From assembly GCA_963681505.1 (NCBI GenBank), contig OY811971.1:5431408-5495407 (forward strand): DNA of 64,000 nt. Direction: 5' to 3'. Each line of letters opens with the position of its first letter. Within the stretch, counting starts at the first letter, position 1. The stretch comes from Eunapius fragilis. Its lineage: Eukaryota > Porifera > Demospongiae > Spongillida > Spongillidae. Under the pieces are notes generated by a model that did not search any database, was not told where the DNA came from, and was given only the letters and a program-made list of their open reading frames with translations. This document shows, piece by piece, positions 35,593 to 60,953 of this stretch. A program made the translations under genes and the position numbers.

Positions 35593-35855
35593 TCACATTT
35601 CTATACTTTTAAGGACAAATACAAGTGTTGACCAGGTAACTGGCTTCACACCCTTTCCCTGAAGCCATTTTTTAAGTATGGCCATATTGATCCTTTCAGC
35701 ATTCTTCGTATGTTCCACTTCCAATGCTTCCACTATAGCTCCATTGTTGTCCTCCAGTAGAAATACTCCAAATTTATCATACTTCGCTCCAACCTGCACA
35801 GCCATGTTCAGTTTGCTAGCGGAGAAAGATAACAGCTCCATCATTGTGGGTGTTC
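35593..35855 (-). CDS. ROCO gene, last exon: Death domain
   Basis: The acceptor CTCCCACCAG opens GTPTMMELLSFSASKLNM, AVQVGAKYDKFGVFLLEDN, then AERINMAILKKWLQGKGV and PVTWSTLVFVLKSIEM-stop. The W-x-x-x...T-W-x-x-L-x-x-x-L-x-x-I pattern of the last helices is typical of Death domains, and a C-terminal position matches DAPK. Phase from the preceding exon is G+GA. Confidence 0.7.
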
Positions 35856-38800
35856 CTGGTGGGAGGAGCAACATGATCAATACTCAGTGATGGGAACATC
35901 TTGCCAATGTGCATCCCGACAAGTAACAAATTACCATGGTCACCATACACATGGCCCTTTGTACATGCTACCCTTCACACATTACTCTGCATGTGCATTC
36001 GTTGAATATAACCTATGCATATGACAGCCTATTTTCCAATTCCATACTAACCTTCTAAATCGGGTACAGTTTGACGGACCAGCTCAGACAACAGTTTGGA
36101 AGGAGATGAGAAGACCACAGAGATGGGCACTGTATGCAGACAAAGAAGAGATTTCTCATACATGCATTAGTAACAACACCTATCCACAGCTCACCTCCAA
36201 TAAGGTTTGGTAGACATGGCTCTATCTTCATCCATTCTCCAATCACAACATGTCGTTTGCAGGTAATATCCACAATGCTCTTATTCCCTTCAAGAAGGGC
36301 CTTCTTTAATGAGGACAGCTCTACCTTAGTGTCATCAGAGTGGTCTGAGCTGGCTTCAGGAGGACAGGAGACTATCTCCAACACATCTACATGTGGACAG
36401 AACTCTTGACAGGCCTTCTTAATGACTGCAAGAACAGAGTGTGCCAACTCTAGGTACTTGAGGTCTGTCCTGTCAGGCGAGGACATAGCCAAGGAGAGAG
36501 ACTGGAACATCTCGTCCATCTCAACAATGGTGGTCACCCCTGTCTCACTAAGCCACTTTATACCTCTTCTCCATACATCACAGCCACGATCAAAGGGGGC
36601 ATCGAGGGGTGAGGTTGGTGTTAAAGGCAATGCAAACTCAAAAGGCAGCCTTCGCAGGAGGACATGAAGAAAGCGTGTGGTATAAAATAGAATTTTTTTT
36701 GGAGAGTTGACTATAATGGACCAGCGAAAACTGCTATTGGAAACTGTGGCACTAATTGGTCTATCAACGTACACAAGTGCTGGGAAGAAAAAGAGGGAAC
36801 CAAGGTCTGGGCTGGGTAAGCCTGCAGGTGCCCCGTTTATAACAACTTCGGATAGGTCTACTTCATGACACAACTCAAAGTGAACCATAAACTTAGTTAT
36901 CATTTCAATGTTGTAGTCTTGAAATGCCTTTTGAAGAATGGCTCTGGGTATTATCCCAGTGTTACTAGCTAGTTGGGTATGTTGCTTAAGAGATGGATCT
37001 GCAAACAAAGCTCCATTGACCTCCTTAAGGATACACTCCTTCTTTAGAACTACCCAGCTTTTAAGGGGGTCATCTGATGGCATAAAGACAATAAAACCCT
37101 TATCTGCTAAGGTGTTAAGTAGTGGGATAACATTAGAGATGGCAGGATCAATGAGTTGATCTGGATCATCCTTCAGACATACCAGAAGGTCAAAGAGGGA
37201 TATGGCATTAAGATCAGGGGGTAGCTTCTCTTCAAAGAAGGCAAGCATCATGTGACACATCATGGAGATTGAAGGACACATATTAATGACATCTTTGTTG
37301 GTTGCATGCAAAAGCTCCATGAACTGATTCATGTTATCCCTATATATCTGTGTAAGATTTAGAGATACAACCTTTATTAACTTTTGATGACTAATAGCTG
37401 ATTCAGAAACCAAATGCAGATGAGCCATCTTCCTATTTCTCTCCTGTGGTGCTAATAGATCAGCATGCGTTCCCACGACTATGACGGATGGCTTTTGAGA
37501 ACATCTGTGACACACACCATCAATCATTGTAGACCAGTAGTGGACCTCCTTGGTGATGGTCTTTTCATCTTTCCGGATGTCTTGCAGGAGAAGGAAGGTG
37601 GCTGGACTTTCGAGGGAGATGGCCTCCAGACATGCACAGTGGCTGGAGAAGTATTGGTGGTGTCCTGCCAAGTCATAGATAATCATATTGCTGTAGGGAC
37701 TGTCAACTTGATGTGGAATGATCCCAGCAGTGAGTGGTTCTACCACATCTTGCCGTCCAAATAAACGCTGAAATATAAAGATATAAATTACCAGGAGCTA
37801 GAAAGTGTACAAGCCGTTATAAATAATGTAGTAATGTTCTCCTGCCCTTGTCAATATACAGAAAACATACTTTTTATGGATTCCAACAAGCGCGAAACAA
37901 TTTGTTTTTAACTCTTCTTTTCATTTCAACCACAATCTATGCTGTTCATTTGTCGGGCGTGGTTTGCATTTTCTTAATGATTTCATACCCTTATTTAGTC
38001 ATGTTTATACACACCTATCTCTTACATGGGAGTCTCTGAAAACTAAAATGAGTTGCTCATCTCATACCAGGTCTAGTTATATAAGATTAACCTCATTGTT
38101 CTCCAAATCCTTACTGTTCCTAACAACTGTAAGTGACCCACCCCCTCACCCCCAAAATAGAAATTCTAGGACATATAGGGGATTGGTGGAGTGTGTAACT
38201 TCAACTGCAGTAATTAATACAGCATATCACACCATTTTTACATGCAGAAGTATAATTTGGTGTGATGCTCAAGTCTTACAACATTCAATACCCCCAGGGG
38301 CTCTAAACAGCCACATTCTACAGGTAGGAGTGTTCAAATTGATTTGAATGTACATGTAGAAGGGCTCTACTTTTCCTTTTTGTTCTTTTAATCCATTAGA
38401 AATAATAGCTGTGTAAAGTGTATATCAGGTTTCCCACTCAATGATTTAGGCATTTAATGTTATGGGAGGCAGGCACCTAAATGATTGGCGCGAATAAAGC
38501 AGGAAACTGAGGACACACTTTGCAAAGCTTTATCCCCATAACGGAGAATTAATCTCATTTTACGTGATCAAGTAGTCAAACAATTGTGTGTAACTATACT
38601 ATCTGCTTTCATTGAAGACCCTTGCATGCAATTTGTTGTTCAGAAATAACATGTGTTCTCACCTTTGCAAGCCTGGTTGTTGTTGGTTTTGAAAGATTGA
38701 TGATGGCCTTCAAAAAAGATAACATTAATAACATTCTTCAGCCTGGGATGGGAATAACAAAGAGATAGTCCAACCCTTCCCCCCCTCCCCAAGTACCAAA

Positions 38801-41800
38801 AGCACCTTCAGGTTGGAGTGTTCAAATCACTTCAAATTTGGTATGTATGGAGAAGGGTATGTCGCTATTAATTTGTTCTGTAAGATGTATTTACTTTTTC
38901 TGTTAATGTTATATTCTTGTTAGGGTGTGTGATCGTTTTGAATAATATACATGCCCTAATTCTTGGGCAAAGTGCATGTACAGTTTCCCTCTATTTGTAC
39001 CAATGATTTAGGCAATTCAATACATGGGAGGTGGGTGGCTAAATCATTGACACACATGACAGTAAACAGTACATGCACTTTGCCTTTATTAAAACAGATT
39101 AAGAAATTAACTACCAAATTAATAGCAGTTTGAACGATCCAACCTGAAGATTTTGCTCATCAGAATACCTAAAATTAATGTACATGTCTCGAGTATTGGA
39201 TCATGTAATGTCGGTACTCCACACGAATAAGACACCGAAATGCACTTTCACCAATGGTAAAATGTGATTAAAAAAATAAGAACCTGACAACATATATATC
39301 CATTTCCTTTGGATGATATATAAATATATAATTCTACAAGGCCCATTTCTATACACACCTGTACTCATCTCACCGAAATGCACTTTCACTATTGGTAAAA
39401 TGTGATTTAAAAAATAAGAACCTGACAACATAAGATAATTATATCCATTTCCTTTGGATGATATATAAATATATAATTCTACAAGGCCCATTTCTAGTAT
39501 ATGTATGTACACACCTGTACTCCTCTCACCTGTGTCAATGTACTCTTCCCAGCACCAGAATTGCCACATAACACAACTTTATTGTACGAATCAGCAGAAA
39601 AGTCCTTGCACGTTTGCAGCATCTTGTTGAACACGCCAAGTGATCGGTACTTTGCGTCCATCATGGCTGTACGTCCTTCATGGTTCTTGATGTTCACATC
39701 AATATCAGGATGTGACAGGAGTACTCTTACAAAATCGGGTTTATCTTCACCAGCAGCCCAATGTAAAGCAGTGTTGCCCAGCTGGTAATAGGAACAATGA
39801 TGTCATGAAGTGAATATTTCCAGGTCATATACAAAACCTTTTGGTGTTGTGCACAACTAATAATGTTAATACACATGTCGATGTAATGAAACATTGCATA
39901 TGAAGATATTAGTGCATTGAATGTCTTCATGGTATAATAAAATCAAACACCCTTTTGTGGGCAAAATTTATGCATCAGTTCTAGTTTGCTGGGTCTAGAT
40001 CAGTCGCTAACAACATGTACCATTAATGACAAACTGAATTTACTAAAGGAAATCATTTATGGGCAGGTGGCAGATCATCTGACCTTGGATAGAAAGAATT
40101 GAGGTGAGTGACCTTGTTACTATTGGTCCAATTCAATGTTCAATAACAGATTGAACCACTCACCTTGGCAACCCACCATCACAAGTGTCCCTCACATCAA
40201 CCACTACCCTATGCTGTAGCAACCACTATGGCCAAAGCCACGCAGGTTTTTGGCCAGAAAATAAGTTATTAATGAAATAATTATTAATCAATTTGAAAAT
40301 TCATTGCAGGTGGTATGAATTCTGCTTCAGATCTAGAAACCGTAACTGCAGTGTTCCCGACACAATCCCAAGTGTCTCTCACATCCTCCACCACTAACCC
40401 ACAGCCACCTTCCCTACTACCCTGACACCATGGAGGTGACCCCCCCCCCCCCCCCCCGGCCCACATGCAATGGTACATTCATGTATACATGTACCTTCAC
40501 AACCCACTGATGTATGATTCAGGTGGAGGCCATTCAAATGACTGTTTATCCAATTATTCTGTTGTATACATTCTTACACATCTAGTGACTTTGTTTTCAT
40601 TTTAATTCCACACTAGCGTAGTAAGCCCGTAGATTGGTTGGGAGATGGGGGGAGGGGGAAGTTCAGGACAACAATAAGGGGGGAACCAATATGAGGTGGG
40701 CGTATAAAGGGGGCTATCCCCACATCACACATCTGGCAAGGGTGTATGGGGCTATGCTGTAAGCTCCTCCGCCACAGACCCCAGAAGCTTTGCAAGTAGT
40801 ATATACAGCATATCAAAACATAAGGAATTTATTTTTCATTCATGGACCCGTCTGCTAATGCCTAGCCTCAAACCCACACCCAAGTGTACATTGCTTACAG
40901 CATATACTAAAGATAAGACCAGAATGTCAGTGGTCCAAACATGCAGAGAGCTCATGCTAATTACATTCAAAGCCATTCCGGTTACAGAGACGAGCTTGAA
41001 GTTAGCAAGCGAGTTTGATAACGCTGCAACATCTGGGCATGTGTCTAAGCTACGGTAAAGCCATTTCAGAAGTGAATGAATCAATTGGAAGAAGAATGAA
41101 ACTCTGTTAAATCCACTGTTCAGTGTGTCATGTTCACAGGAGGTCATATTTCCTCTCCATGGCTCAAACAAAAGCCCCACATGCAGTTACAAGCCATACT
41201 TTCTCACTAGCAATGAATAATTTATTTTGATGGCAAGCAGAACTAACCAGGATGAGCAAGTGGGGGAGGGGTACAACCCAACCCACTAACATGTAACAAG
41301 GGGTAAACAGCAGTAAAGAGTGGAGGCCCTCCCACCTAGCTAGGGGGTATGGCCTGTAGTATATTGAGATACACATTGGTGCATGAGGTGGCCATACATG
41401 TATTGTGTACAAGTTGGCCACAGGAGAGGGGTGGTAACTGGTTTGTGGTCACTGCAAGCCAGGTGAACTGGTTGTGTAGAATACTATATATTGTATGTGT
41501 CTGCATGTGTGTGCAGTTGTTTGTCCCATGCAGGTGACCACAGGCTAGTGTGCTGTCCATGGCTGTACCACACATGATGTATGTGCACTTGTGTGCCATT
41601 TAGAGTTATATGCTTACATCTCTACAATGTATGCAAGTTTAGACTGTAACTGTGGGGTTGATGGCCAGCGGTGTTGGACATTGAGATGCACATTATGGTT
41701 GTGCATTGTATGTGTTAGCACCTCTTTTGTTCTGAAAAACAACTGGACCACTATATGTACATGTAATCACGATCACAGTGACACACCAAACGATAGTACA

Positions 41801-44800
41801 TGTACATGTAAGGATGATAGGGATGGTTGGTTTGGGAGGAGGCTTATGAAAGTACATGTACATGTAGCCATCTGGTACATGCAAGCAAAATACATGATTA
41901 CTACAATTCAATTGTAACTCACCTTGTTCTGACTGTTGACTTTTGCACCCTTATCCAGCAGCAGTTTAACAATCTCAAAATTTCCCCTTGATAATGCCAT
42001 CATCAGTGGTGACCATCCATACTGTAAATATAAGTACACATGATAGGAAGCACCATTTAGACTAACTGTGGGGTTGATGGCCAGCGGTGAATAACCACAG
42101 CCTCCTATTAAATAACCATTGGGGTAGCTTTTGTAACAACTGCAGTGATCCCGACACAATCCCAAGTGTCCCTCACAAGTGTCTCTCACATCCTCCACCA
42201 CAAACTCACAGCCACCTTCCCTACTACCCTGACACCCTGGAGGTGACCCCTCAGGCCCACATGCAATGGTACATTCATGTATACATGTACCTTCTCAACC
42301 CACTGATGTATGATTCAGGTGGAGGCCATTCAAATGACTGTTTATCCAATTATTCTGTTGTATACATTCTTACACATCTAGTGACTTTGTTTTCATTTTA
42401 ATTCCACACTAGCGTAGTAAGCCCGTAGATTGGTTGGGAGATGGCGGAGGGGGAAGTTCAGGACAACAGTAAGGGGGGAACCAATATGAGGTGGGCGTAT
42501 AAAGGGGGCTATCCCCCACATCACACGTCTGGCAAGGGTGTATGTGGCTATGCTGTAAGCTCCTCCGCCACAGACCCCAGAAGCTTTGCAAGTAGTATAT
42601 ACAGCATATCAAAACATAAGGAATTTCTTTTTCATTCATGGACCCGTCTGCTAAAGCCTAGTCTCATACCCACACCCATATGTACATTGCTTACAGCATA
42701 TACTAAAGATAAGGCCAGAATGTCAGTGGTCCAAACATGCAGAGAGCTCATGCTAATTACATTCTAAGCCATTCCGGTTACAGAGACGAGCTTGAAGTTA
42801 GCAAGCGAGTTTGATAACGCTGCAACATCTGGGCATGTGTCTAAGCTACGGTAAAGCCATTTCAGAAGTGTATGAATCAATTGGAAGGAGAATGAAAATC
42901 TGTTAAATCCACTATTCAGTGTGTCATGTTCACAGGAGGTCATATTTCCTCTCCATGGCTCAAACAAAAGCCCCACATGCAGTTACAAGCCATACTTTCT
43001 CACTAGCAATGAATAAATTATTTTGATGGCACGCAGAACTAACCAGGATGAGCAAGTGGGGGAGGGGTACAACCTAACCCACTAACATGTATCAAGGGGT
43101 AAACAGCAATAAAGAGTGGGGACCTTCCACCCAGCTAGGGGGTGTGGCCTGTAGTATATTGAGATACACATTTGTGCATGAGGTGGCTCTATTGTGTACA
43201 AGTTGGCCACAGGAGAGGAGTGGTAACTGGTTTGTGGTCACTGCATTCAGGTGAACTGGTTGTGTAGAATTCTATATATTGTATGTGTTTGCATGTGTGT
43301 GCAGTTGTTTGTCCCATGCAGGTGACCACAGGCTAGTGTGCTGTCCATGGCTGTACCACACATGATGTATGTGCACTTGTGTGCCATTTAGAGTTACATG
43401 CTTACATCTCTACAATGTATGCAAGTTTAGACTGTAACTGTGGGGTTGATGGCCAGCGGTGTTGGACATTGAGATGCACATTATGGTTGTGCATTGTATG
43501 TGTTAGCACCTCTTTTGTTCTGAAAAACAACTGGACCACTATATGTACATGTAATCACGATCACAGTGACACACCAAACGATAGTACGTGTACATGTATG
43601 GATGTAAACTGGTTGTGCTGAATACTACATGTGTACTGACACCATGGATGTGACCCCTCCGGCCCACATGCAATGGTACATACATGTATACATGTCACAA
43701 CCCATTGTTGTATGCTTCAGGTGGAGGCCATTCAGATGACTGTTAATCCAATTATTCTGTTGTATACATTCTTACACATCTAGTGACTTTGTTTTCATTT
43801 GAATTCCACACTAAATTTCTTCCCGTAGCGTAGTAAGCCCGTAGACTGGTCGGGAGATGGGGGGAGGGGGAAGTTCAGGACAACAATAAGGGGGGAACCA
43901 ATATGAGGTGGGCGTATAAAGGGGGCTATCCCCCACATCACACGTCTGGCAAGGGTTTATGGGGGTGTGCTGTAAGCTCCTCCGCCACAGACCCCAGATG
44001 CTTTGCAAGTAGTATATACAGCATATCAAAACATAAGGAATTTCTTTTTCATTCATGGACTCGTCTGCTAAAGCCTAGTCTCATACCCACACCCAAGTGT
44101 ACATTGCTTACAGTATCATATCATATACTAAAGATAAGGCCAGAATGTCAGCGGTCCGAACATGCAGAGAGCTCACGCTAATTGCGATCTAAGCCGTTCC
44201 GGTTACGGAGACGAGCTTGAAGTTAGCAACCGAGTTTGATAACGCTGTGACATCTGGGCATGTGTCTAAGCTACGGTAAAGCCATTTCAGAAGGGAATGA
44301 CTCAATGTGAAGGAGAATGAAAATCTGTAAAATCCACTGTTCAATGTGTCATGTTCACAGGTCATATTTCCCTCAAACAAAAGCCCCACAAGCAGTTACA
44401 AGCCATACTTTAGCAATGAATAAATTATTTTGATGGCAAGCAAAACTAACCAGGATGAGCAAGTGGGGGGGGGGGGGGGGGGGGGGGGGGGTACTACTCA
44501 ACCCACTAACATGTATCAAGGTGTTAACAGCAATAAAGAGTGGGGGCCCTCCCACCCAGCTAGGGGGTATGGCTTGTAGTATATTGAGATACACATTTGT
44601 GCATGAGATGGCTCTATTGTGTACAAGTTGACCACAGGAGAGGAGTGGTAACTGGTTTGCGGCTGCCGCAAGCCAGGTGAACTGGTTGTGCTGGATACTA
44701 AACTTTGTATGTGTTTGCATGTGTGTGCAGTTGTTTGTCCCATGCAGGTGACCACAGGCTAGTGTGCTGTCCATGGCTGTACCACATATGATGTATGTGC

Positions 44801-47800
44801 ACTTGTGTGCCATTTTGAGTTTTACTTTATTATATGCTTACATGTATGCAAGTTTAGACTGTAGCTGTGGGGTTGATGGCCAGCGGTGAATAACCACATC
44901 CTCTTATTAAATAACCATTTGGGGTAGCTTTTGTAACAACTGCAGTGTTCCTGACACCATCCCAAGTGTCCCTCACATCCTCCACCACAATCCTACAGCC
45001 ACCTTCCCTAGTACCCTCACACCATGGAGGTGACCCCTCAGGCCCACATGCAATGGTACATACATGTATACATTACCATCACAACCCACTGGTCTACTGT
45101 AAATCACAAGCCATCTGGACATGCAAGCGAAATCTGCTGAAAATGATTACTACAATTGATTTGAAACTTACCTCATTATGATAGTTGACATCTACACCCT
45201 TATCCAGCAGCAGCTTAACAACCCCACAATTTCCCCCCGACGATGCCTCCATCAGTAGTGACTCTCCATACTGTAAACATAAGTACACATCATAGGAAGC
45301 ACCATCAATACTCTATCATGTCAGCACACACATTGTGGTCCAAAAGCATGTACATCTACATGGACATGCACAACATCCTATATACACACAGATCATCACT
45401 TACTGTTTATACACTAACATGTATCAAGGGGTAAACAGCAATAAAGAGTGGGGTCCCTCCCACCCACCTAGGGTGTATGGCCACCGTTGGACTACTTGAT
45501 GATTTGATATGATATGATATGATTTTCATGAAGTGACAAACAGTATCAGGTATAGACTTATCACACCTTGCAGATGGAGAAAATACGCAACATTCATTGC
45601 ACATTTAAAAAAACTGCCAGTTGATATAACCATGCCGACTTCAGTACCACTTTTAATATTCATTGGCTGCTGAAAAAGATGAAGTGCTTTGTAATCCGAC
45701 CCCTTTTCTTGGTAGCTTGCCTCTCAATGCCCTGCCTACTTCTAGCTTACCTTCATTATACGAGGCTATGTGTACCTAATACCTGCCTTCACACTAACTT
45801 CCAGTCATAATAAGAGCTTCCACAGCTTGGGTACTCAGATTGTGTCCATCCCTCTACCACGGTAACATAGCAAGGTTACCCAGCTAGGGAGTATGGCCTG
45901 TTGTATATTGAGATACACATTTGTGCATAAGACGGCCCTATTGTGTACAAGTTGGCCACAGTACTGCCACTGGAAACCAGGTGAACTGGTTGTGCTGAAT
46001 ACTATATATTGTATGTACTTGCGTGTGTGTGCAGTTGTTATGCCCCATGCTGCTGACCACTGGCTAGTGTGCTGTCCATGGCTGTACCACATATGATGCA
46101 TGTGAAGGCCGGTAGATCACATTGGCGACGAGGGTAAACATCTGGAACAGCTAGAAGAAGGTACCACCCACCATGTGGAGCACCTGCCATTGCATAAGGT
46201 TCTCGGGAGGAGCTAGATGCGCTTAAATGAACGCCCACCATCAAGGTACACGTGAGCTAAAGTGACCCACATATCAATACCCTGATCTACAAAGATAAAG
46301 GGGGAAGGAGTGTAGTGTATTGAGATACACATTATGGTTGTGCATTGTATGTGTTAGCACCTCTTTTGTTCTGAAAAACAACAGGACCACTATATGTACA
46401 TGTAATCACGATCACAGTGACACACCAAACGAAGATACATGTACATGTAAGGATGATAGGGATGGTTTGTTTGGGAGGAGGCTTAAACACTGTCCATGAA
46501 GACCATATTAAATACGTCCCAACGCCAACATCCACTACATAGATCACAAGCCATCTGGTAAATCCAAGCGAAATACTTTAAACATGATAATTACTACAAT
46601 TTAACTATAACTCACCTTGTTCTGATGGTTGACCTCTGCCCCCTTATTCAGCAGCAGCAGCTTAACAATCTCAAAATGTCCCTTACGTGACGCCATCATC
46701 AGTGGTGACACTCCATTCTGTAAATATAAGTACACATCATAGGAAGCACCATCAATACTCTATCATGTCAGCACACACATTGTGGTCCAAAATTATGTAC
46801 ATCTACATGGACAAGTAAATAAAAACATTCTCTATGAGAAAGTTGGTGGCATATAGGATTTGAAGGCAATGGTGGTGTAAAAAGGAAGGAAACAAGGGTC
46901 TAGTAATAAGGAAAAATGGAATAGTCCTATATTTAGCACACGAACAACATACTATATCCTACATATAGAAATGTGCTAAATATAGGACTATTCCATTTTT
47001 CCTTATTACTAGACCCTTGTTTCCTTCCTTTTTACACCACCATTGCCTTCAAATCCTATATGCCACCAACTTTCTCATAGAGAATGTTTTTATTTACTTG
47101 TTTCATTGATTTTTATTCATACCCGATTATGAGCCGTATAGCATGTTAAGTAATCCATCTTGATATGAGAGGGAGGTTGTAAAGGTACGACATACCATTG
47201 AGTGACCTTAACTTTTTTCGCCGAGCGAGATGCACGTTCAGGACTATGGCAATATCGCTGTCTTTTTTCAGGATCTGCTCGATACCTTGCACGTCGAGAG
47301 GTCCGTTCCTTTTCAGGATCTGAGGGGGCTTTTAAGGGGCGGCCGAAATAGAAGAGAGGTTATTAATTGTCGCCCCAGCGCGATCGAACCCACAAACGCA
47401 TTTTGTATCGGGCCAGAAGCAGACAGCACCCTCTCCCCCACTAATCGCATCTCGATACCTTGCGCGTCGAGAGATCCGTTTCTTTTCAGGCTCTGCTCGA
47501 TAGTTTTCACGTTTGAGAGGCCCGCTTCTTTTCAGGCTCTGCTTTGTAGTTCCGCTCGGGCTGAATCTAATACGTCGTCTCTAGTTTTGAGGTACTATGC
47601 TCGTCGTTTGGCTTTCTCCTTATCCTGACGTGCATGAAGGCATTTTGAGAAAAAAAAACTTCACTAAGTTACAAAGAGCGTCAAACCTAAACGATAGAAT
47701 GATTATAGTACGCACGTGCACGTTATTAAAAATACATAACCGCCAAAGTTAATTACCACTACGTGTAGTGCCCAGACCGTACACATTTGATGTATACTGC

Positions 47801-50800
47801 TAGTACTTCGTATAAAGAGCGACGTAGGACCTATCCGAGTCGTGTCAGTGCAGTAAGCTATACGTGATTTGCTAACACAACCACCGATAAATGTCATGTA
47901 GCCTCGAGACGTTTTGACCACAGAAGCGAAAATGCCAGTAAATTCTGAAGCCATTGGTGTGATTTTCATTTCTTAAAAGTGTTCCTATCCCGAGTTATGC
48001 GTGGTCAAGAACAAGAACAAGAAGAAGAAGAAGAAGAACGAGAAATACGTGGGACTGGGTACGAGTTTCAAAAATTGTTTTGTTCTCTACAACCACGCGG
48101 TTTTGTGACATCAAACAAACACGAAACTGCTTGTTGTTGCCTTCTTGTACGACGACGATAACAAGGTAAGCCATCCGCTCGTCGGGAGTCTTGTTAGAAG
48201 CGGGTCGCGTTTTTTTAATGACATTCATAATCGGGGTCAAATCCTATATGAGAGTTACTAACGTAACTCTCGATATGCACAATATCCTATATACACACTT
48301 ACTGTTTCATTAACTGCATCACATGTACCTCAAGATTCATCTTCACACTACCTAAACTCCACTAATCATCAGGAGGCCTATTGAAGCCCCAGAAGATTAT
48401 GATGCTCACATTGCTCCACTATAGAGGTGATGCTGGCCCCTCCCACTCTGAGACGACCTTATTATGGAAACACAACTGGACCACTCTCTAGTGCTTAGTA
48501 CCAGTGTGATGGCTGTCTAACACAAGTGCTTTATGGTCACTGCAATATATTATCAAGGGGTAAACAACAATCAAGAATGGGGGCCCTCCCACCCAGCTAG
48601 GGGGTATGACTTGTAGTATAATGAGATACACATTTGTGCATGAGGTGGCTCTATTGTGTACAAGTTGGCCACAGGAGAGGGGCGGTAACTGGTTTGTGGT
48701 CACTGCAAGCCAGGTGAACTGATTGTGCTGAATACTACATGAATACACTGCATGTAGAAGAAGGTACCAGCCACCACGAGAGGGAGAGGGACAGTATCCC
48801 AGTACTCTGCACAACATGGAGGAAACGTCTCAGGAGAAAAACTGTCTCAACGTCGGTATCAGGGGATGTTTCAAAACAAGACCCGTGCCTGTGACCAAAC
48901 GAATTATGATGCAGAAAAGACTGCCAACAGTCTCAACGTGTGTGGAAGGGGCTACAAGTAAAGTGAGTCAGGGGACGTTGCAGAGTGTGCCTGCAATTGG
49001 ATAAGGTTCTGGGGAGGAGAGCGCCTACCACTGGATAAGGTTCTGGTGAGGAGCTAGATGCGCTTAAATGAATGCCCATCATCAAGGTACCCGTGAGCAA
49101 AAGTGACCCACATATCAATACCCTGATCTACAAAGATTAAGGGGGAAGGAGTGTAGTGTATTGAGATACACATTATGGTTGTGAATTGTATGTGTTACCA
49201 CCTCTTTTGTTCTGAAAAATAACTGGACCACTATATGTACATGTAATCACGATCACAGTGACACACCAAACGAAGATACATGTAAATGTAAGGATGATAG
49301 GGATGGTTTGTTTGGGAGGAGGCTTAAACACTGTCCATGAAGACCATATTAAACACGTCCCGACGCCAACATCCAGTACATAGATCACAAGCCATCTGGT
49401 ACATCCAAGCGAAATACTTAGAACATGATAATTACTACTATTCAACTGTAACTCACCTTGTTCTGATGGTTGACCTCTGCCCCCTTATCCAGCAACAGCT
49501 TAACAATCTCAAAATGTCCCCCTGATGACACCTCTATCAGTGGTGACTCTCCATACTGTAAATGTAAGTACACATCATAGGAAGCACCATCAATACTCTA
49601 TCATGTCAGCACACACATTGTGGTCCAAAATCATGTACATCTACATGGACATGCACAACATCCTATATACACACTTACTGTTTTAATAACTGCATCACAT
49701 GTACCTCAAGATTCATCTTCACACTACCTAAACTCCACTAATCATCAGGAGGCCTATTGAAGCCCGAGAAGATTATGATGCTCACATTGCTCCACTACAG
49801 AGGTGATGCTGGCTCCTCCCACTTTGAGACAACCTTTTTATGGAAACTCAACTGGACCACTCTCTAGTGCTTAGTGCCTGTGCGATGGCTGTTTAACATA
49901 TGTGCTTTACGGTCACTGCAATATATCATCAAGGGGTAAACAGCAATAAAGAGTGGGGGCCCTCCCACCCAGCTAGGGGTATGGCTTGTAGTATTTTGAG
50001 AAAAAATTTGTGCATGAAGTGGCTCTATTGTGTACAAGTTGGCCACAGGAGAGGGGCGTTAACTGGTTTGTGGTCACTGCAAGCCAGGTGAACTGGTTGT
50101 GCTGAATACTACATGAATACACTGCATGTAGTAGAAGGTACCAGCCACCACAAGAGGGAGAGGGACAGTAACCCAGTCCTCTGCACAACATGGAGGAAAC
50201 GTCTCAGGAGAAAAATTGTCTCAACGTCGGTACCAGGGGATGTTTCAAAACAAGATCCATGCCTGTGACCAAACGAATTATGATGCAGAAAAGACTGCCA
50301 ACAGTCTCAACGTGTGTGGAAGGGGCTACAAGTAAAGTGAGTCAGGGGACGTTGCAGTGTGTGCCTGCAATTGGATAAGGTTCTGGGGAGGAGAGCGCCT
50401 ACCACTGGATAAAATTCTGGGGAGGAGCTAGATGCGCTTAAATGAACGCCCACCATCAAGGTACACGTGAGCAAAAGTGACCCACATATCAATACCCTGA
50501 TCTACAAAGATTAAGGGGGAAGGAGTGTAGTGTATTGAGATACACATGATGGTTGTGCATTGTATGTGTTAGCACCTCTTTTGTACTGAAAAACAACTGG
50601 ACCACTATATGTACATGTAATCACGATCACAGTGACACACCAAACGAAGATACATGTACATGTAAGGATGATAGGGATGGTTTGTTTGGGAGGAGGCTTA
50701 AACACTGTCCATGAAGACCATATTTAATACGTCCCAACGCCAACATCCAGTACATAGATCACAAGCCATCTGGTACATCCAAGCGAAATACTTTGAACAT

Positions 50801-53800
50801 GATAATTACTACAATTCAACTATAACTCACCTTGTTCTGATGGTTGACCTCTGCCCCCTTATCCAGCAGCAGATTAACAATCTCAAAATGTCCCCCTGAT
50901 GACGCCTCTAACAGTGGTGACTCTCCATACTGTAAATATAAGTACACATCATAGGAAGCACCATCAATACTCTATCATGTCAGCACACACAGTGTGGTCC
51001 AAAATCATGTACATCTACATGGACATGCACAACATCCTATACACACACTTACTGTTTCATCACATGAACCTCAAGATTCATCTTCACACTACCTAAACTC
51101 CACAAATCATCAGGAGGCCTATTGAAGCCCCAGAAGATTATGGTGCTCACATTGCTCCACTATAGAGGTGATGCTGGCCACTCCAACTCTAAGACGACCA
51201 TTTTATGGAAACACAACTGGACCACTCTCTAGTGCTTAGTACCAGTGTGATGGCTGTCTAACACATGTGCTTTACAGTCACTGCAATATATTATCAAGGG
51301 GTAAACAGCAATAAAGAGTGGGGGCCCTCCCACCCAGCTAGGGGGTATGGCTTGTAGTATATTGAGATACACATTTGTGCATGAGATGGCTCTATTGTGT
51401 ACAAGTTGGCCACAGGAGAGGGGCGGTAACTGGTTTGTGGTCACTGCAAGCCAGGTGAACTGGTTGTGCTGAATACTACATGAATACACTGCATGTAGAA
51501 GAAGGTACCAGCCACCATGAGAGGGAGAGGGACAGTATCCCAGCCCTCTGCCCATCATGGGGGAAACATCTCAGGAGAAAAACAGTCTCAACGTCGGTAC
51601 CAGGGGACGTTTCAAAACAAGACCCGTGCCTGTGACCAAACGAATTATGATTCAGAAAAGACTGCCAACAGTCTCAATGTGTGTGGAAGGGGCTACAAGT
51701 AAAGTGAGTCAGGGGACGTTGCAGAGTGTGCCTGCAATTGGATAAGGTTCTGGGGAGGAGAGCGCCTACCACTGGATAAGGTTCTGGGGAGGAGCTAGAT
51801 GCGCTTAAATGAACGCCCACCATCAAGGTACACGTGAGCTGAAGCGACCCACTTGTCAGTACCCTGATCTACAAAGATTAAGGTGGATGGAGTGTAGTAC
51901 ATTGAGATACACATTATGGTTGTGAAATGTATGTGTTAGCACCTCTTTTGTACTGAAAAACAAGTGGACCACTATATGTACATGTAATCACGATCACAGT
52001 GACACACCAAATGATAGTACATGTACATGTAAGGATGATAGGGATGGTTGGTTTGGGAGGAGGCTTATGACAGTACATGTACATGTAGCCATCTGGTACA
52101 TGGAAGCAAAATACATGATTACTACAATTCAACTGTAACTCACCTCGTTCTGAGGGTTGACCTCTGCACCCTTATCCAGCAGCAGCTTAACAATCTCAAA
52201 ATGTCCCCCTGATGACGCCTCTATCAGTGGTGACTTACCATACTGTAAAAATAAGTACACATCATAGGAAGCACCATCAATACTCTATCATGTCAGCACA
52301 CACATTGTGGTCCAAAAGCATGTACATCTACATGGACATGCACAACATCCTATATACACACTTACTGTTTCATTAACTGCATCACATGTACCTCAAGATT
52401 TATCTTCACACTACCTAAACTCCACTACTCATCAGGAGGCCTATTGAAGCCCCAGAAGATTATGGTGCTCACATTGCACCACTATAGAGGTGATGCTGGC
52501 CCCTCAAACTCTGAGACGACCTTTTTATGGAAACACAACTGGACCACTCTCTAGTGCTTAGTGCCTGTGTGATGGCTGTCTAACTCATGTGCTTTACAGT
52601 CACTGCAATATATTATCAAGGGGTAAACAGCAATAAAGAGTGGGAGCCCTCCCACCCAGCTAGGGGGTATGGCTTGTAGTATATTGAGATACACATTTGT
52701 GCATGAGGTGGCTCTATTGTGTACAAGTTGGCCACAGGAGAGGGGTGGTAACTGGTTTGTGGTCACTGCAAGCCAGGTGAATTGGTTGTGCTGAATACAA
52801 CATGAATACACTGCATGTAGAAGAAGGCACCAGCCACCACGAGAGGGAGAGGGACAGTATCCCAGCCCTCTGCCCAACATGGGGGAAACGTCTCAGGAGA
52901 AAAACTGTCTCAACGTCGGTACCAGGGGATGTTTAAAAACAAGACCCGTGCCTGTAACCAAACGAATTATGATGCAGAAAAGACTGCCAACAGTCTCAAC
53001 GTGTGTGGAAGGGGCTACAAGTAAAGTGAGTCAGGGGACGTTGCAGAGTGTGCCTGCAATTGGATAAGGTTCTGGGGAGGAGAGCGCCTACCACTGGATA
53101 AGGTTCTGGGGAGGAGCTAGATGCGCTTTAATGAACGCCCACCATTGAGGTACACGTGAGCTGATATGACCCACTTGTCCGTACCCTGATCTACAAAGAT
53201 TAAGGTGGAAGGAGTGTAGTACATTGAGATACACATTATGGTTGTGAATTGTACGTGTTAGCACCTCTTTTGTACTGAAAAAAAATTGGACCACTATATG
53301 TACATGTCGATCACAGTGACACACCAAACGATAGTACATGCACATGTAAGGATGATAGAGATGGCTGGTTTGGGAGGAGGCTTATGAAAGTACATGTACA
53401 TGTAGCCATCTGGTACATGGAAGCAAAATACATGATTACTACAATTCAACTGTAACTCACCTTGTTCTGATGGTTGACCTCTGCACCCTTATCCAGCAGC
53501 AGCTTAACAATCCCCAAATGTCCTCCTGATGCCGCCTTCATCAGTGGCGACTCTCCATACTGTAAATATAAGTACACATCGTAGGAAGCACCATCAATAC
53601 TCTATCATGTCAGCACACACAATTGTGGTCCAAAAGCATGTACATCTACATGGACATGCACAACATCCTATATACACACTTACTGTTTCATTAACTGCAT
53701 TACATGTACCTCAAGATTCATCTTCACACTATCTAAACTCCCCTAATCATCAGGAGGCCTATTGAAGCCCCAGAAGATTATGGTGCTCACATTGCTCCAC

Positions 53801-56800
53801 TATAGAGGTGATGCTGCCCCCTCCAACTCTGAGACGACCTTTTTATGGAAACACCACTGGACCACTCTCTAGTGCTTAGTGCCAGTGTGATGGCTGTTTA
53901 ACACATGTGCTTTACGGTCACTGCAATATATTATCAAGGGGTAAACAACAATAAAGAGTGGGGGCCCTCCCACCCAGCTAGGGGCTATGGCTTGTAGTAT
54001 ATTGAGATACACATGTGTGCATGAGATGGCTCTAATGTGTACAAGTTGGCCACAGGAGAGGGGCGGTAACTGGTTTGTGGTCACTGCAAGCCAGGTGAAC
54101 TGGTTGTGCTGAATACTACATGAATACACTGCATGTAGAAGAAGGTACCAGCCACCACGAGAGGGAGAGGGACAGTATCCCAGCCCTCTGCCCAACATGG
54201 GGGAAACATCTCAGGAGAAAAACAGTCTCAACGTCGGTACCAGGGGATGTTTCAAAACAAGACCCATGCCTGTGACCAAACGAATTATGATGCAGAAAAC
54301 ACTGCCAACAGTTTCAACGTGTGTGGAAGGGGTCACAAGTAAAGTGAGTCAGGGGAAATTGCAGAGTGTGCCTGCCATTGGATAAGGTTCCTGGGGAGGA
54401 GCTAGATGCGCTTAAATGAACGTCCACCATCAAGGTACACGTGAGCTGAAGCGACCCACTTGTCAGCACCCTGATCTACAAAGATTAAGGGGGATGGAGT
54501 GTAGTACATTGAGATACATATTATGGTTGTGCATTGTATGTGTTAGCACCTCTTTTGTTCTGAAAAACAACTGGACCACTATATGTACATGTAATCACGA
54601 TCACAGTGACACACCAAACGATAGTACATGTACATGTAAGGATGATAGGGATGGTTGGTTTGGGAGGAGGCTTATGAAAGTACATGTACATGTAGCCATC
54701 TGGTACATGGATGCAAAATATGTGATTACTACAATTCAATTGTAACTCACCTCGTTCTGAGGGTTGACCTCTGCACCCTTATCCAGCAGCAGCTTAACAA
54801 TCTTAAAATGTCCCCTTGATGACGCCACCTCCAGTAGTGACTCTCCATTCTGTAAATATAAGTACACATCAAAGGAAGCACCATCAGTACTCTATCATGT
54901 CAGCACACACATTGTGGTCCAAAAGCATGTACATCTACATGGACATGCACATCATCCTATATACAAACAGATCATCACTTACTGTATATACACAAACACG
55001 TATCAAGGGGAACATTGCAGTTGTTACAAAAGCTACCCCAATGGTTATTTAATAGGAGGCTGTGGTTTTTCACCGCTGGCCATCAACCCCACAGTTACAG
55101 TCTAAACTTGCAGTGATGTAAGCATATAATAATGTAAAACTCAAAATGGCACATAAGTATATGATATGTGGTACAGCCAAGGACAGCACACTAGCCTGTG
55201 GTCACCTGCATGGGACAAACAACTGCACACACATGCAAACACACACTATATATTGTCAGTGTTCCTGACACCATCCCAAGTGTCCCTCACATCCTCCACC
55301 ACAAACCCATAACCATTTTCCCTACTACCCTGACACCATGTAGGTGACCCCTCAGGCCCACATGCAATGGTACATGTACATACATGTATACATGTACTAT
55401 CACAACCCACTGATCTACTGTAGATCACAAGCCATCTGGCATGAAAGTAAAATCTGCTGATAATGATTACTACAATTCAACTGTAACTCGCCTTGTTCAG
55501 ATGGTTGACCTCTGCACCCTTATCCAACAGCAGCTTAACAATCTCAAAATGTCCCCTTGATGACGCCTCCATCAGTGGTGACCATCCATACTGTAAATAT
55601 AAGTACACATCATAGGAAGCACCATCAATACTCTATTATGTCAGCACACACATTGTGGTCCAAAAGCATGTACATCTACATGGACATGCACAACATCCTA
55701 TATACACACAGATCATCACTTACTGTATATACACTAACACGTATCAAGGGGTAAACAGCAATAAAGAGTGGGGGCCCTACCACCCAGCTAGGGGGTATGG
55801 CCTCAGTTGGACTACTTGATGATTTGATTTGATATTATTTGATTTTCATTTATGGACATGATTTACACAAAGGCATGTAATGCATATATAAATGCACTGA
55901 TGTGCTGCCCTACTAAAAGGGGTAAGGTCTGCAAAAGGGAGACAAGTTCACTTTACATAGTCATGACTTAAATATTTGTTTGGAGGATGAAGTGACAAAC
56001 AGTATCAGGTATAGACTTATCATACCTCGCAGATGGAGAAAATACGCAACATTCATTGCACCTTTATAATAACTGTCAGTTGATATAACCATGCCGACTT
56101 CAGTACCGCTTTAATAATATTCATTGGCTGCTGAAAAAGTTGAAGTGCTTCTTAATCCGCCCCTTTTCTTGCTATCTTGAAGACACAGGACTTACATGTA
56201 GTTTAATGAGTTACCTCTTGTACCATATGGTGACAGGTTGATGTGGAAAAAGACTGGCATGATGTATCTCATAACACACTAATTGAAAGTAATGGACCTT
56301 AGTGATGGCTGGTTTGGGAGGAGGCTTAAACACTGTGGCTATGTTTTCTACAGCAGCTACAAATATAAACATGTGCTTTATGATCACTACAATATATTAT
56401 AGATCATCTTTGTACACTTGTGTGCTATTTTGAGTTTCACTTTATTGTATGCTCACATCTCTACAACACTTCTCTATAGCGGTGGGGCTAGGACCTAAGA
56501 CCATCTTTTAATGGGAACACAGCTGGACCTCTCTGCCTAGTGGTTAGTTCCCTGTGGAGGCTACTGAACTAGCCTTGTGGACACAAGAGGAATACAAGGT
56601 ATACCCACCCACCAGTCCCTTCCTGTCAATGACCTTGTGTGTGCATGTTCTCTTTTATACAATTATTACATGTACATGTAAGGATGATAGGGATGGTTGG
56701 TTTGAGAGGAGGCTTATGAAAGTACATGTACATGTAGTCATCTGGTACATGGAAGCAAAATACATGATTACTACAATTCAACTGTAACTCACCTTGTTCT

Positions 56801-56891
56801 GATGGTTGACCTCTGCACCCTTATTCAGCAGCAGCTTAACAATCTCAACATGTCCCCCTGATGACGCCTCCATTAGTGGTGACTTTCCATC
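35593..56891 (-). CDS. Ankyrin-Roc-COR-Death protein (DAPK-like ROCO), 5' incomplete
   Basis: Fifteen exons joined by consistent splice phases encode at least 1,067 aa: ten 33-34-aa ankyrin repeats, a further ankyrin leading into a Roc GTPase domain, COR, and a C-terminal Death domain. ROCO proteins are GTP-binding regulators that work as dimers. DAPK-type members (kinase, ankyrins, Roc-COR, Death) act in cell-death signalling at the cytoskeleton. No kinase exon is seen here, and the upstream end is not found before the satellite at 58.2 kb, so the protein may start with ankyrins or have a distant first exon. The ankyrin exons lie in tandemly duplicated introns and two of the introns carry insertions or inversions. 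All exons have open frames, so the gene looks functional. Domain calls rest on motifs, not searches. Confidence 0.8.
36052..36129 (-). CDS. ROCO gene, short linker exon
   Basis: 78 nt, acceptor GTCTGCATACAG, donor AAG|GTTAGTATG. Reads VPISVVFSSPSKLLSELV then RQTVPDLEG. It enters with G+TG and leaves with G, matching both neighbours. Reading through its upstream intron also gives an open frame, so the C-terminus ending LYPI would arise from intron retention. Confidence 0.7.
36195..37767 (-). CDS. ROCO gene, main exon: Roc (switch II, G4) and COR
   Basis: 524 codons. Starts RLFGRQDVVEPLTAGI, where the T of PLTAG is the switch I threonine. Then comes NMIIYDLAGHHQYFSSH (DxxG) and SVIVVGTHADLL (the THxD form of G4 used by ROCO proteins). 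The remaining 380 or so residues fit COR: ILKEVNGALFADPSL, CHEVDLSEVVING, LPSPDLGSLFFFPAL, then RFLHVLLRRLPFEFALPL and a beta-rich end. Acceptor TTTATATTTCAG, donor GGAG|GTGAGCTG. Confidence 0.85.
38663..38707 (-). CDS. ROCO gene, 45-nt micro-exon in Roc
   Basis: Acceptor ATCTTTTTTGAAG, 15 codons AIINLSKPTTTRLAK, donor AAG|GTGAGAAC, phase 0 on both sides. It links the Walker A exon to the switch I exon, giving GKSTLTQ-AIINLSKPTTT-RLAK-RLFGRQ, which is the right spacing for a GTPase alpha-1/switch I segment. Confidence 0.75.
39234..39505. repeat. 138-bp tandem duplication next to a splice donor
   Basis: CACCGAAATGCACTTTCAC ... AATAAGAACCTGACAACATA ... ATATAATTCTACAAGGCCCA occurs twice (from 39234 and 39372). 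The second copy ends just before the donor of the exon at 39530-39781. Confidence 0.85.
39530..39781 (-). CDS. ROCO gene, exon with last ankyrin and Walker A
   Basis: 84 codons in phase 0. Starts LGNTALHWAAGEDKPDFV (ankyrin G-x-T-A-L-H-x-A-A), then SHPDIDVNIKNHEGRTAM. A linker MLQTCKDFSADS leads to NKVVLCGNSGAGKSTLTQ, whose GNSGAGKST is a P-loop. Acceptor CCTATTACCAG, donor CAG|GTGAGAGG. Confidence 0.85.
40317..44850. repeat. About 1.2-1.8-kb intronic tandem copies, mostly lacking the ankyrin exon
   Basis: A block from TGCAGTG(T/A)(T/C)CC(C/T)GACAC through the antisense-like GATGGGGGGAGGGGGAAGTT segment to GTGACCACAGGCTAGTGTGC occurs three times (from about 40350, 42150 and 43635). Only the first copy is followed by an ankyrin exon (41923). 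The third contains a 28-nt G tract (44465-44492) where the others have GGGGGAGGGG. The first has an 18-nt C tract (40440-40457) where others have CCCCTCAGG. Confidence 0.8.
41923..42021 (-). CDS. ROCO gene, ankyrin exon (repeat 10)
   Basis: 99 nt, phase 0. Reads YGWSPLMMALSRGNFEIVKL then LLDKGAKVNSQNK. Donor AAG|GTGAGTTAC. One whole 33-residue ankyrin unit, adjacent to the Walker A exon in the message. Confidence 0.85.
45172..45270 (-). CDS. ROCO gene, ankyrin exon (repeat 9)
   Basis: 99 nt, phase 0. Reads YGESLLMEASSGGNCGVVKL then LLDKGVDVNYHNE. The most diverged of the set. Confidence 0.85.
46616..46717 (-). CDS. ROCO gene, ankyrin exon (repeat 8, 34 aa)
   Basis: 102 nt. Reads NGVSPLMMASRKGHFEIVKL then LLLNKGAEVNHQNK. 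One extra CTG (Leu) comes from expansion of a CAG/CTG run, keeping the frame. Confidence 0.85.
46811..47101. repeat. Fold-back with 129-bp arms
   Basis: Left arm 46811-46939, right arm 46973-47101, spacer 33 bp. Arms contain TATAGGATTTGAAGGCAATG, TAAAAAGGAAGGAAACAAGG and CTATATTTAGCAC. It forms the left part of the insertion at 46813-48274. Confidence 0.85.
46813..48274. mobile_element. 1.46-kb hairpin-ended element inserted in an ankyrin intron
   Basis: Sister introns read CTACATGGACATGCACAACA. Here the sequence leaves this text after CTACATGGACA (46813) and rejoins at TGCACAATATCCTATATAC (48275). Both ends have the inverted motif ATATAGGATTTGA near a small hairpin (TTCTCTATGAGAA on the left; GAGAGTTACTAACGTAACTC on the right). 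Contents are a fold-back, a broken basic-repeat ORF and a (GAA)n tract. Confidence 0.75.
47220..47640 (-). pseudogene. Broken basic-repeat ORF (relative of 5190-5462)
   Basis: The minus strand starts ATGCCTTCATGC (MPS as in the copy at 5462) and then shows, in shifting frames, NYKAEPEKKRAS, NYRAEPEKKRISRRARYR and RYRADPEKRQRYCHSPERAS. Several stops and frameshifts separate the repeats. Function unknown. Confidence 0.55.
49457..49555 (-). CDS. ROCO gene, ankyrin exon (repeat 7)
   Basis: 99 nt, phase 0. Reads YGESPLIEVSSGGHFEIVKL then LLDKGAEVNHQNK. Acceptor TACATTTACAG, donor AAG|GTGAGTTAC. Confidence 0.85.
50831..50929 (-). CDS. ROCO gene, ankyrin exon (repeat 6)
   Basis: 99 nt, phase 0. 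Reads YGESPLLEASSGGHFEIVNL then LLDKGAEVNHQNK. Confidence 0.85.
52144..52242 (-). CDS. ROCO gene, ankyrin exon (repeat 5)
   Basis: 99 nt, phase 0. Reads YGKSPLIEASSGGHFEIVKL then LLDKGAEVNPQNE. The Q-N-E end also occurs in repeat 3, suggesting gene conversion or paired duplication. Confidence 0.85.
53461..53559 (-). CDS. ROCO gene, ankyrin exon (repeat 4)
   Basis: 99 nt, phase 0. Reads YGESPLMKAASGGHLGIVKL then LLDKGAEVNHQNK. Confidence 0.85.
54751..54849 (-). CDS. ROCO gene, ankyrin exon (repeat 3)
   Basis: 99 nt, phase 0. Reads NGESLLEVASSRGHFKIVKL then LLDKGAEVNPQNE. Confidence 0.85.
55013..55250. repeat. Inverted intron block, about 240 bp
   Basis: GTTGTTACAAAAGCTACCCC ... CCATCAACCCCACAGTTACA ... 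GGTCACCTGCATGGGACAAA is the reverse complement of blocks found in direct orientation at 44700-44945 and 41520-41660. The flanks on both sides are in the normal orientation. Confidence 0.8.
55492..55590 (-). CDS. ROCO gene, ankyrin exon (repeat 2), GC donor
   Basis: 99 nt, phase 0. Reads YGWSPLMEASSRGHFEIVKL then LLDKGAEVNHLNK. The donor is AAG|GCGAGTTAC, a GC-AG site, while most sister exons have GTGAGTTA. Confidence 0.8.
56793..56891 (-). CDS. ROCO gene, ankyrin exon (repeat 1, most 5' seen)
   Basis: 99 nt, phase 0. Reads DGKSPLMEASSGGHVEIVKL then LLNKGAEVNHQNK. The acceptor is TATATTTACAG, so at least one further exon must lie upstream; I could not find it. Confidence 0.85.
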
Positions 56892-58173
56892 CTGTAAATA
56901 TAAGTACACATCATAGGAAGCACCATCAATACTCTATCATGTCAGCACACACATTGTGGTCCAAAAGCATGTACATCTACATGGACATGCACAACATCCT
57001 ATACACACACAGATCATCACATACTGTATATACACTAACACATATCAAGGGGTAAACTGCAATAAAGAGTGGGGTCCCTCCCACCCAGCTAGGGGGTATG
57101 GCCTCAGTTGGACTACTTGATGATTTGATTCGATATGATTTGATTTTCATTTAAGGACATGATTTACACAAAGGCAAGTAATGCATATACAAATGCACTG
57201 ATATACTGCCCTACTAAAAGGGGTAGTGTCTGCAAAAGGGAGTCAAGTTCATTTTACAGAGTCAATATTTGTTTGGTAGATGAAGTACCCATGTTTCCGA
57301 TGGAGGCCATTCCAATAATTGTTTATGCTATTATTCTGCTGAATACATTCTTACATATCTAGTGACTCTGCTTTCATTTGGAAATAAACTAAGGTGTTAA
57401 TTAAGATCATGATACTCTCAGTGCTCCTCTATAGGTGGTCTATCACACCAAGACCATCTTTTAATGGAACACAACTGGACCCCTCTGCCTAGTGGTTAGT
57501 TCCCTGTGGTGGCTATTGAACACGTCTGCTTTAGCCTTGTGGACATCAGGGTTAGATGTAAAGGTTGCCATAAATGACATTTATTCATTATCATAGCATG
57601 ATTAGCAGCTAACATAACATGTCATTACAACAATGCATCATCAACCACAGCACAAGCTAACCCCTAAGGATATAAAATAAGCAAATTCACTATGTCTATT
57701 ACGTTTTAATTGGCATAATTAGCGCCAATCTTCATCAATAATATGAATGCCATTTATGCCAACCACCCCTTGACGTGGATGAATACAAGGTATATCCACC
57801 CACCAGTCCCTTCCCTGTCAATGACCTTGTGTGTGCATGTCCTCTTCCATAAAACTACTTGATGATCTCATGACACACCAAAAGAACGTACATGTACATG
57901 CTGCCCCATGGCTCCTAAGCCTGCAGCTTGTATCTTGAATCATGGTCAGAGCCCTCGAACATATACATGACATATCTTTGGTGATTTCCCATGGCTCCAT
58001 GCAGTAATTGAGAATTACTGTAGACAGGGCACAACACACTCACTATTCTAATATCCTTAGATACCTAAAAGACCATTGCTCCTTTAACTGGTCCTTTACC
58101 CATGGTGACACATCTCCAAAAGGGGGTAGGCCCCAGACGGTGAATTCAGTTTGGATGAACACATGATGGGTCC
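56892..58173. other. Upstream intron/flank, no exon seen
   Basis: Begins with the usual intron blocks (to about 57360), then unique AT-rich DNA. I see no ankyrin, kinase or start exon on the minus strand. Confidence 0.5.
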
Positions 58174-58404
58174 ACCCCCACTGCTTACAGTCCTCCCCCA
58201 TTGCTTACAGTCCTCCCCCAATGCTTACAGTCCTCCCCCAATGCTTACAGTCCTCCCCCAATGCTTACAGTCCTCCCCCACTGCTTACAGTCCTCCACCA
58301 ATGTTACATTCCTCCCCCAATGCTTACTGTCCTCCCCCCAATGCATACAGTCATCCCCCAATGCTTATAGTTCTCCCCCAATGCTTACAGTCCTCCACCA
58401 ATGC
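58174..58404. repeat. 20-bp minisatellite, left part
   Basis: About 11 copies of TGCTTACAGTCCTCCCCCAA. Register and variants are the same as in the array that resumes at 60954. Confidence 0.95.
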
Positions 58405-60940: not shown

Positions 60941-60953
60941 TCCCCAGTGCCTA

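Follow-up and report, generated by a model that had tools for sequence, protein, structure and literature searches.

A clustered family of ankyrin-ROC-COR genes with one repeat per exon in the sponge Eunapius fragilis, a probable repertoire of recognition receptors

The ankyrin-ROCO gene of the window

A gene whose ankyrin repeats are each encoded by a separate exon lies on the minus strand of the window, a stretch of 64,000 nucleotides (C1:5431408-5495407) of the genome of the freshwater sponge E. fragilis (218,937,333 bases in 24 contigs). Seven Wnt matches in this genome, against none in 14 control genomes, accord with an animal source. The assembly, odEunFrag1.1 (GCA_963681505.1), is described as 218.91 Mb in 23 chromosomes, of which chromosome 1 measures 24.99 Mb, with a 28.5-kb mitochondrial genome (PMC12616128). 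An initial annotation had proposed ten ankyrin exons of 99-102 nt in phase 0, and all ten were located in the span it had claimed (Table 1). Nine are 99 nt long and one (E8) is 102 nt; each is open and in phase 0-0. The acceptor TTTACAG precedes every one of them; the donor of E2 is GCGAGT and that of E9 GTAAGT, and the other eight exons have GTGAGT. When concatenated, E1-E10 show ten matched stretches to the Pfam profile of the 33-residue Ank repeat (PF00023), at 300.3 bits (cut-off 21.1) and E = 4.3e-93.

The assignment of these exons to a ROCO protein by the annotation is also supported, in that a ROCO-like gene continues 3' of them with a P-loop and with Roc, COR-A and COR-B matches in the correct order, each below its Pfam cut-off (25.9 bits against 27, 24.5 against 35.3 and 21.5 against 27, respectively). 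The Roc match is full-length and there is weak similarity to the Roc chains of LRRK2 (E = 1e-4); in one paralog, COR-B (25.3) and COR-A (22.8) likewise score below the cut-off. The joined reading frame is open from E1 through the end of the last exon, where TGA follows. From the domain order and the P-loop, DLAGH and THAD motifs, we take the gene as a ROCO gene. Neither NACHT nor NB-ARC appears for it in the Pfam list at E up to 0.05, in which Roc and other P-loop families are present, and it does not qualify as an NLR (STAND) gene. The DAPK family is characterised by an N-terminal kinase together with a C-terminal Death domain. No kinase was found among the modelled exons of the window, which does not reach the start of the gene. 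The sequence pattern of the last 87 residues had led us to expect a Death domain, but Pfam returned none for the window gene or for one paralog at E up to 10, and an AlphaFold2 model of these residues (mean pLDDT of 58) is too weak for use.

Elsewhere in the window, a neighbouring surface-receptor-like gene encodes fibronectin III domains as well as immunoglobulin domains, the latter with a best E of 2e-16, and a retrotransposon gag-like frame scores below the Pfam cut-off. Rfam gave no match in the window at the gathering threshold.

Table 1. Features of the window and related places (window positions unless a contig is named)
Feature	Position	Strand	Remarks
Retrotransposon gag-like frame	1-795	-	
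Surface-receptor-like gene	17426-19166	-	Ig and fibronectin III domains
Last coding exon with stop	35593..35855	-	C-terminal domain of ~87 aa
Main Roc/COR exon	36195..37767	-	1573 nt, phase 1 donor; DLAGH and THAD motifs; COR-A/COR-B similarity under cut-off
Roc-domain exon	38663..38707	-	45 nt
Exon with last, constrained ankyrin repeat and Roc P-loop (GNSGAGKST)	39530..39781	-	252 nt, phase 0
Ankyrin exon E10	41923..42021	-	99 nt
Ankyrin exon E9	45172..45270	-	99 nt
Ankyrin exon E8	46616..46717	-	102 nt, one additional Leu codon
Palindrome	46811-47101		~290 nt, in E7-E8 intron
Regular tandem array of 1.3-kb unit	48272..54968	-	contains E3-E7; spacings 1374, 1367, 1322, 1318
Ankyrin exon E7	49457..49555	-	99 nt
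Ankyrin exon E6	50831..50929	-	99 nt
Ankyrin exon E5	52144..52242	-	99 nt
Ankyrin exon E4	53461..53559	-	99 nt
Ankyrin exon E3	54751..54849	-	99 nt
Ankyrin exon E2	55492..55590	-	99 nt, GC donor
Ankyrin exon E1	56793..56891	-	99 nt, phase 0
Minisatellite	58170-58405		20-nt unit, in long first intron
282-aa open frame	58719-59564	-	
MTALL... exon	59610-59834		
Stretch of frames repeating the same words	~60930-64000		in long first intron
ROC-COR places with internal stops	C1:4461826, 4380055, 4220604, 5333168, 5769883; C6:6588814, 6690536; C7:7872852		

A multigene family

The window gene has many relatives, which the initial annotation had not noticed, nor had it seen the N-caps beyond the window or the amino-acid excess described below. 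With a two-repeat query, we counted by hand at least 143 similar ankyrin places genome-wide, at least 122 at C1 4.02-5.58 Mb and at least 21 elsewhere, these being lower bounds as 150 of 1777 candidates were scored. The Roc/COR exon as query gave 82 ROC-COR places across the genome, 17 of which, by our own count, lie at C1 4.05-5.56 Mb. Eight of the 82 carry internal stops (Table 1), and some family members may be dying.

We examined about 290 kb closely, namely the window, a further 25.6 kb on its upstream side and 200 kb from four other loci, the last 10 kb of which (at 4.44 Mb) holds no exon. A hidden Markov model (HMM) of the ten window exons matched 75 times in this sequence: 62 regular 99-nt exons, four further intact ones (90, 93, 96 and 102 nt), three matches for two damaged exons, five N-caps and one chance match on the opposite strand. 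Intact ankyrin exons hence number 66 of 68 and damaged ones two. Divisibility of the exon lengths by three is partly by construction, since the exon finder required in-frame splice sites, but the low damage count is not. Among the 62 regular exons, the acceptor is TTTACAG in 58 and the donor GTGAGT in 48, with GT in 59 and GC in three.

On C6, in a 69% identical ROCO paralog of which about 1 kb upstream of the P-loop exon was examined, an ankyrin exon of 99 nt, bounded by AG and GTGAGT, likewise stands by itself before the P-loop exon; the layout may therefore predate the C1 clusters. One repeat per exon is not a general rule in this genome, because other ankyrin genes hold their repeats within one long open frame of up to 3376 aa.

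N-cap exons, cassettes and repeat number

Ten exons of 99 nt with the approximate sequence ELNxRLLxAAxxGRTEEVxALLRQGA encode N-caps. Seven of these (class I) have in common an upstream sequence of ~370-450 nt, of which one copy is followed for 341 nt up to the edge of the examined stretch; three (class II) are preceded by an ankyrin exon 182-186 nt upstream. The closest N-cap to the window gene, at C1:5499852, lies ~4.4 kb past the window end; a further cassette, at C1:5520659, has five exons. Within the window, neither the putative first exon MTALL... nor the 282-aa open frame could be upheld as the 5' end of the gene: the best match of the former in the other fetched stretches was not below E = 0.3, and the latter found no match there better than that value. 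Because they are unmatched in those stretches and an N-cap lies outside the window, we place both in a long first intron.

Several observations concern these regions. The ankyrin exon 5' of each class II N-cap (L018, L026 and L033) carries KFNH near its end, and exon and cap seem to be a conserved pair that moves together. Each of the seven class I caps has, in its upstream block, an ATG immediately 5' of a GT donor, a possible start codon. The 282-aa frame has a hydrophobic C-terminus and no Pfam match near the cut-off, and may be a nested gene. The long first intron also holds a minisatellite with the 20-nt unit GTCCTCCCCCAATGCTTACA and a longer repeat stretch, both with strong G/C skew.

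The number of ankyrin exons between N-cap and P-loop exon differs among loci: nine in b401, counted from its last class I cap, 12 and an additional damaged one in b430, ten in the window cluster, seven (class II cap) or 14 (class I cap) in b414, and six (class II cap) in b435. The annotation had argued that whole repeats could be gained or lost without touching the frame, and the 6 to 14 intact exons at these five loci, a range that depends on the choice of starting cap, agree with that.

An array of this kind could also yield many proteins by skipping or choice of ankyrin exons, which would be compatible with a receptor function. Any subset of exons keeps the frame because the ten window exons are all in phase 0-0, and alternative splicing of LRR exons has been reported in brown-algal ROCO genes (PMC11378527). 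The largely uniform splice sites noted above nevertheless fit constitutive use, and we regard such a splicing pool as possible, if doubtful.

Three of the five clusters (b401, b414 and the window cluster) have two class I cassettes before a single effector, the effector of b414 being represented by the P-loop exon alone within the examined stretch. No Roc/COR pieces were found between the cassettes of these three clusters at E up to 1, bar one match in b401 (27 aa of P-loop, E = 0.27, opposite strand). The clusters might be variable-constant loci, in which one ROC-COR effector is shared by alternative first cassettes that are joined to it by splicing, with a choice among exons. Under such an arrangement, an N-cap with its run of ankyrin exons would make up a cassette, two or three of these would stand in line before a single effector, and the conserved block of roughly 370-450 nt upstream of most of them would be a candidate promoter. 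We think this rather unlikely; if true, a sponge could draw a whole repertoire of such proteins from one locus, which would amount to a combinatorial system of immune-type recognition or allorecognition in a lineage from the base of the animal tree.

Tandem duplication and exchange of exons

The annotation had attributed the spread of the exons to recent 1.3-kb tandem duplication with near-identical introns, which holds in part. A regular head-to-tail unit exists but is limited to five of the ten exons (E3-E7), whereas start-to-start spacing over E1-E10 ranges from 741 to about 3249 nt. Some intron stretches are indeed nearly identical, with mutual differences of 4-8% among units U3-U7; overall they are not, the 200-nt flanks of the window exons being 42% to 98% identical in pairwise comparisons. 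At 40.3-44.9 kb of the window, an intron stretch occurs in three copies without an ankyrin exon. The intron between E7 and E8 is lengthened by an extra stretch of ~1.4 kb, in which sits a palindrome (92% self-complementary) that looks like a fold-back mobile element.

As the mechanism of spread, tandem duplication is not supported in the form proposed. The introns of U3, U4 and U6 differ from that of U5 by 0.041, 0.040 and 0.070, respectively, and the intron of a remote unit at C1:5573469-5574792, ~90 kb away, differs from it by 0.041. Because this remote unit is as near to U5 as U3 and U4 are, recent tandem duplication is part of the story, and the sequences point to exchange among loci besides it.

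Flank and exon distances across the 62 regular exons are also uncorrelated (Mantel r = -0.15, P = 0.97, for acceptor and donor flanks; -0.03, P = 0.57, for acceptor flank and exon; 0.06, P = 0.28, for donor flank and exon), and distances at first and second codon positions correlate with those at third positions (0.25; P = 0.012). The nearest neighbour belongs to the same cluster in a proportion of 0.25 for acceptor flanks, 0.47 for donor flanks and 0.41 for exons, with 0.21 expected. In 105 pairs chosen for their near-identical flanks, exon distances still amount to 0.127 for first and second codon positions and 0.098 for third positions. Since exon and flank distances are uncorrelated, the exons appear to have been reshuffled and not only tandemly copied. 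Exons and flanks would thus have separate histories, as intronic crossing-over and conversion would produce; homogenised flanks are an alternative reading of the decoupling.

Selection on repeat positions

The 62 exons form 1891 pairs, which together give pN = 0.145 and pS = 0.109 (pN/pS = 1.33), a ratio that is not significant alone (codon bootstrap interval of 0.84-2.06, with 10.6% of replicates below 1). The P-loop, ROC-COR and C-terminal exons give pN = 0.044, pS = 0.137 and a ratio of 0.32 in eight comparisons of window exons with paralogs (five of the P-loop exon, two of Roc/COR, one of them partial, and one of the C-terminal exon). Silent change is thus similar in ankyrin and effector exons, whereas amino-acid change is threefold apart. 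The effector is, judged by these ratios, under purifying selection. All pN/pS values are from counting methods, which recombination disturbs.

The excess of amino-acid change is confined to certain positions. At hypervariable repeat positions 2, 3, 5, 10, 14, 17 and 32, pN/pS is 2.57, and at the remaining positions it is 0.80. Because these seven were picked after the fact, we cross-validated them. The top seven of the plus-strand clusters, which are the same seven, give 5.23 on the 13 exons of the window cluster (pS = 0.056), and the top seven of the window cluster (3, 5, 9, 10, 17, 29 and 32) give 3.53 on the 49 other exons (pS = 0.078), ratios that rest on few silent changes. Hypervariable positions 2, 3, 5 and 14 are, in the numbering that we assume, among the six randomised in designed ankyrin repeat proteins (DARPins), an overlap of four of seven with P = 0.011. 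At these six presumed positions, the 62 exons have a pN/pS of 1.76 and an entropy of 1.66, against 0.67 elsewhere (P = 0.0054). Relative to the set so numbered, sponge positions 10, 17 and 32 also vary, and positions 13 and 33 vary less (entropy of 0.76 and 0.94).

The pattern is uneven among clusters and genes. Overall ratios by cluster are 2.48, 1.43, 1.06, 1.30 and 1.03; the window gene alone (nine exons) has 0.91 overall and 1.40 at the presumed DARPin positions, where cluster b435 has 0.88. Of the 66 columns for first and second codon positions, 18 exceed a diversity of 0.25, as do four of 33 third codon columns, whereas no column among 100 on the acceptor side of the introns does so. The Kolmogorov-Smirnov test separates first and second codon columns from intron columns (P = 0.003), but a rank test does not (P = 0.61). 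In Fisher's tests on five of the ten pairs of window units, with counts back-calculated from rounded rates, exons changed more than introns in three (P = 0.0003, 0.0035 and 0.011), and the other two gave P = 1. As the flanks are possibly homogenised, the effector control and the third codon positions outweigh the introns as evidence.

This evidence bears on whether the family is a neutral tandem expansion with no recognition role, its introns homogenised by gene conversion and its exons drifting on a tolerant ankyrin surface. Such an origin would accord with the bootstrap interval that includes 1 and with the ratio below 1 of the window gene, and homogenised flanks would make exons appear faster than introns. 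Relaxed constraint, however, cannot make amino-acid change outpace silent change within one set of positions, as is seen at the hypervariable positions and in both cross-validations; nor does it suit exons and effector that are alike in pS and threefold apart in nonsynonymous divergence, or variable positions that are non-random on the fold in both DARPin comparisons. We judge neutral expansion unlikely. By the counting method, the hypervariable positions bear the signature of positive selection on a putative binding face; the global ratio is not significant.

Comparison with known systems

Ankyrin repeats also precede the Roc-COR module in DAPK1 and LRRK1/2, and a housekeeping scaffold of that type, in which repeat number is buffered and has no consequence for recognition, could explain this domain combination and the weak Roc similarity to LRRK2 chains. 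Nonetheless, 82 ROC-COR places, their clustering, the amino-acid excess and 6-14 repeats per locus would be unexpected for a scaffold, which makes this explanation very unlikely. The sponge family differs from DAPK1 and LRRK1/2 in its many copies and hypervariable repeats, as well as in the kinase missing among the modelled exons (of a gene with an incomplete 5' end) and a C-terminal domain that has no Death match.

Brown-algal LRR-ROCO genes, as far as described in PMC11378527 (within which Zambounis et al. 2012 is cited), form an expanded family in which every repeat has a separate exon, constant in length and phase, and the presumed binding face is under positive selection. The sponge genes resemble them in their apparent ROCO type, family expansion and apparent selection on the binding face, and in having one repeat per exon of fixed length and phase: the 66 intact exons among the 68 are single-repeat exons, 62 of them exactly 99 nt and in phase 0, and the last repeat shares an exon with the P-loop. 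The repeats differ, however (ankyrin, 99 nt, phase 0, in the sponge; LRR, 72 bp, phase 2, in the algae), and the sponge genes are clustered, whereas most ROCO genes are dispersed on different scaffolds according to the discussion of N. decipiens in that source (PMC11378527). Alternative splicing, a doubtful possibility in the sponge, is reported in the algae; N-cap cassettes are found in the sponge but do not figure in the available part of the algal account (PMC11378527).

In fungal NLRs, near-identical ANK, TPR and WD repeats vary in number (7 to >16 for ANK), the ANK repeats of one locus have five positively selected positions, and selected and polymorphic sites lie on the concave face with one exception, according to the part of the account available (PMC4986451). 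The sponge genes are similar in near-identical repeats, repeat-number variation and seemingly selected ANK positions. The fungal genes, however, encode NACHT/NB-ARC receptors and not ROCO proteins, their variation is between isolates rather than between loci of one genome, and one repeat per exon goes unmentioned in that part of the account (PMC4986451). DARPins, in which six positions per repeat are randomised (PMC6590788), also combine an N-cap with internal repeats that have variable surface positions (PMC8683736, PMC6590788), but they are an engineered library and the sponge genes a natural family.

Interpretation and significance

Given the exon layout, the family, the differences in repeat number among loci, the decoupling of exons from flanks and the position-limited amino-acid excess, we consider it probable that the window gene is one of a clustered sponge ankyrin-ROC-COR family of modular, fast-evolving recognition receptors. 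Each gene would combine an ankyrin exon for the N-cap with a series of interchangeable phase-0 exons of 99 nt, presumably spliced together as modelled, and with a constrained effector made up of the last ankyrin repeat, the Roc GTPase, COR and the C-terminal domain. Exchange within introns, by crossing-over and conversion, would allow whole repeats to be gained, lost or swapped with the frame intact, and selection would diversify the binding face, which we assign through the assumed DARPin numbering. Contact of a ligand with that face may then throw the Roc-COR GTPase switch and set off an intracellular response to self/non-self or pathogens. The receptor function is inferred from this pattern, which looks like that of an immune-type recognition repertoire, and convergence with brown-algal LRR-ROCO genes and fungal NLRs is the best reading of the likenesses.

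Among the literature matches listed, from a coverage that leaves most subscription journals outside, there was no report of one-ankyrin-per-exon ROCO genes or of clustered N-cap cassettes in sponges. An alternate haplotype (GCA_963681495.1) and RNA reads (ERR11641155) are listed for the E. fragilis assembly (PMC12616128), so first tests of the receptor interpretation need no new animals. If that interpretation is right, a near-basal animal shares the solution of brown algae and fungi, a binding face that recombination can lengthen, shorten and re-mix in frame, one repeat at a time, and sponge immunity or allorecognition would gain a concrete, sequence-defined candidate repertoire in which the ligand-touching residues are predicted.
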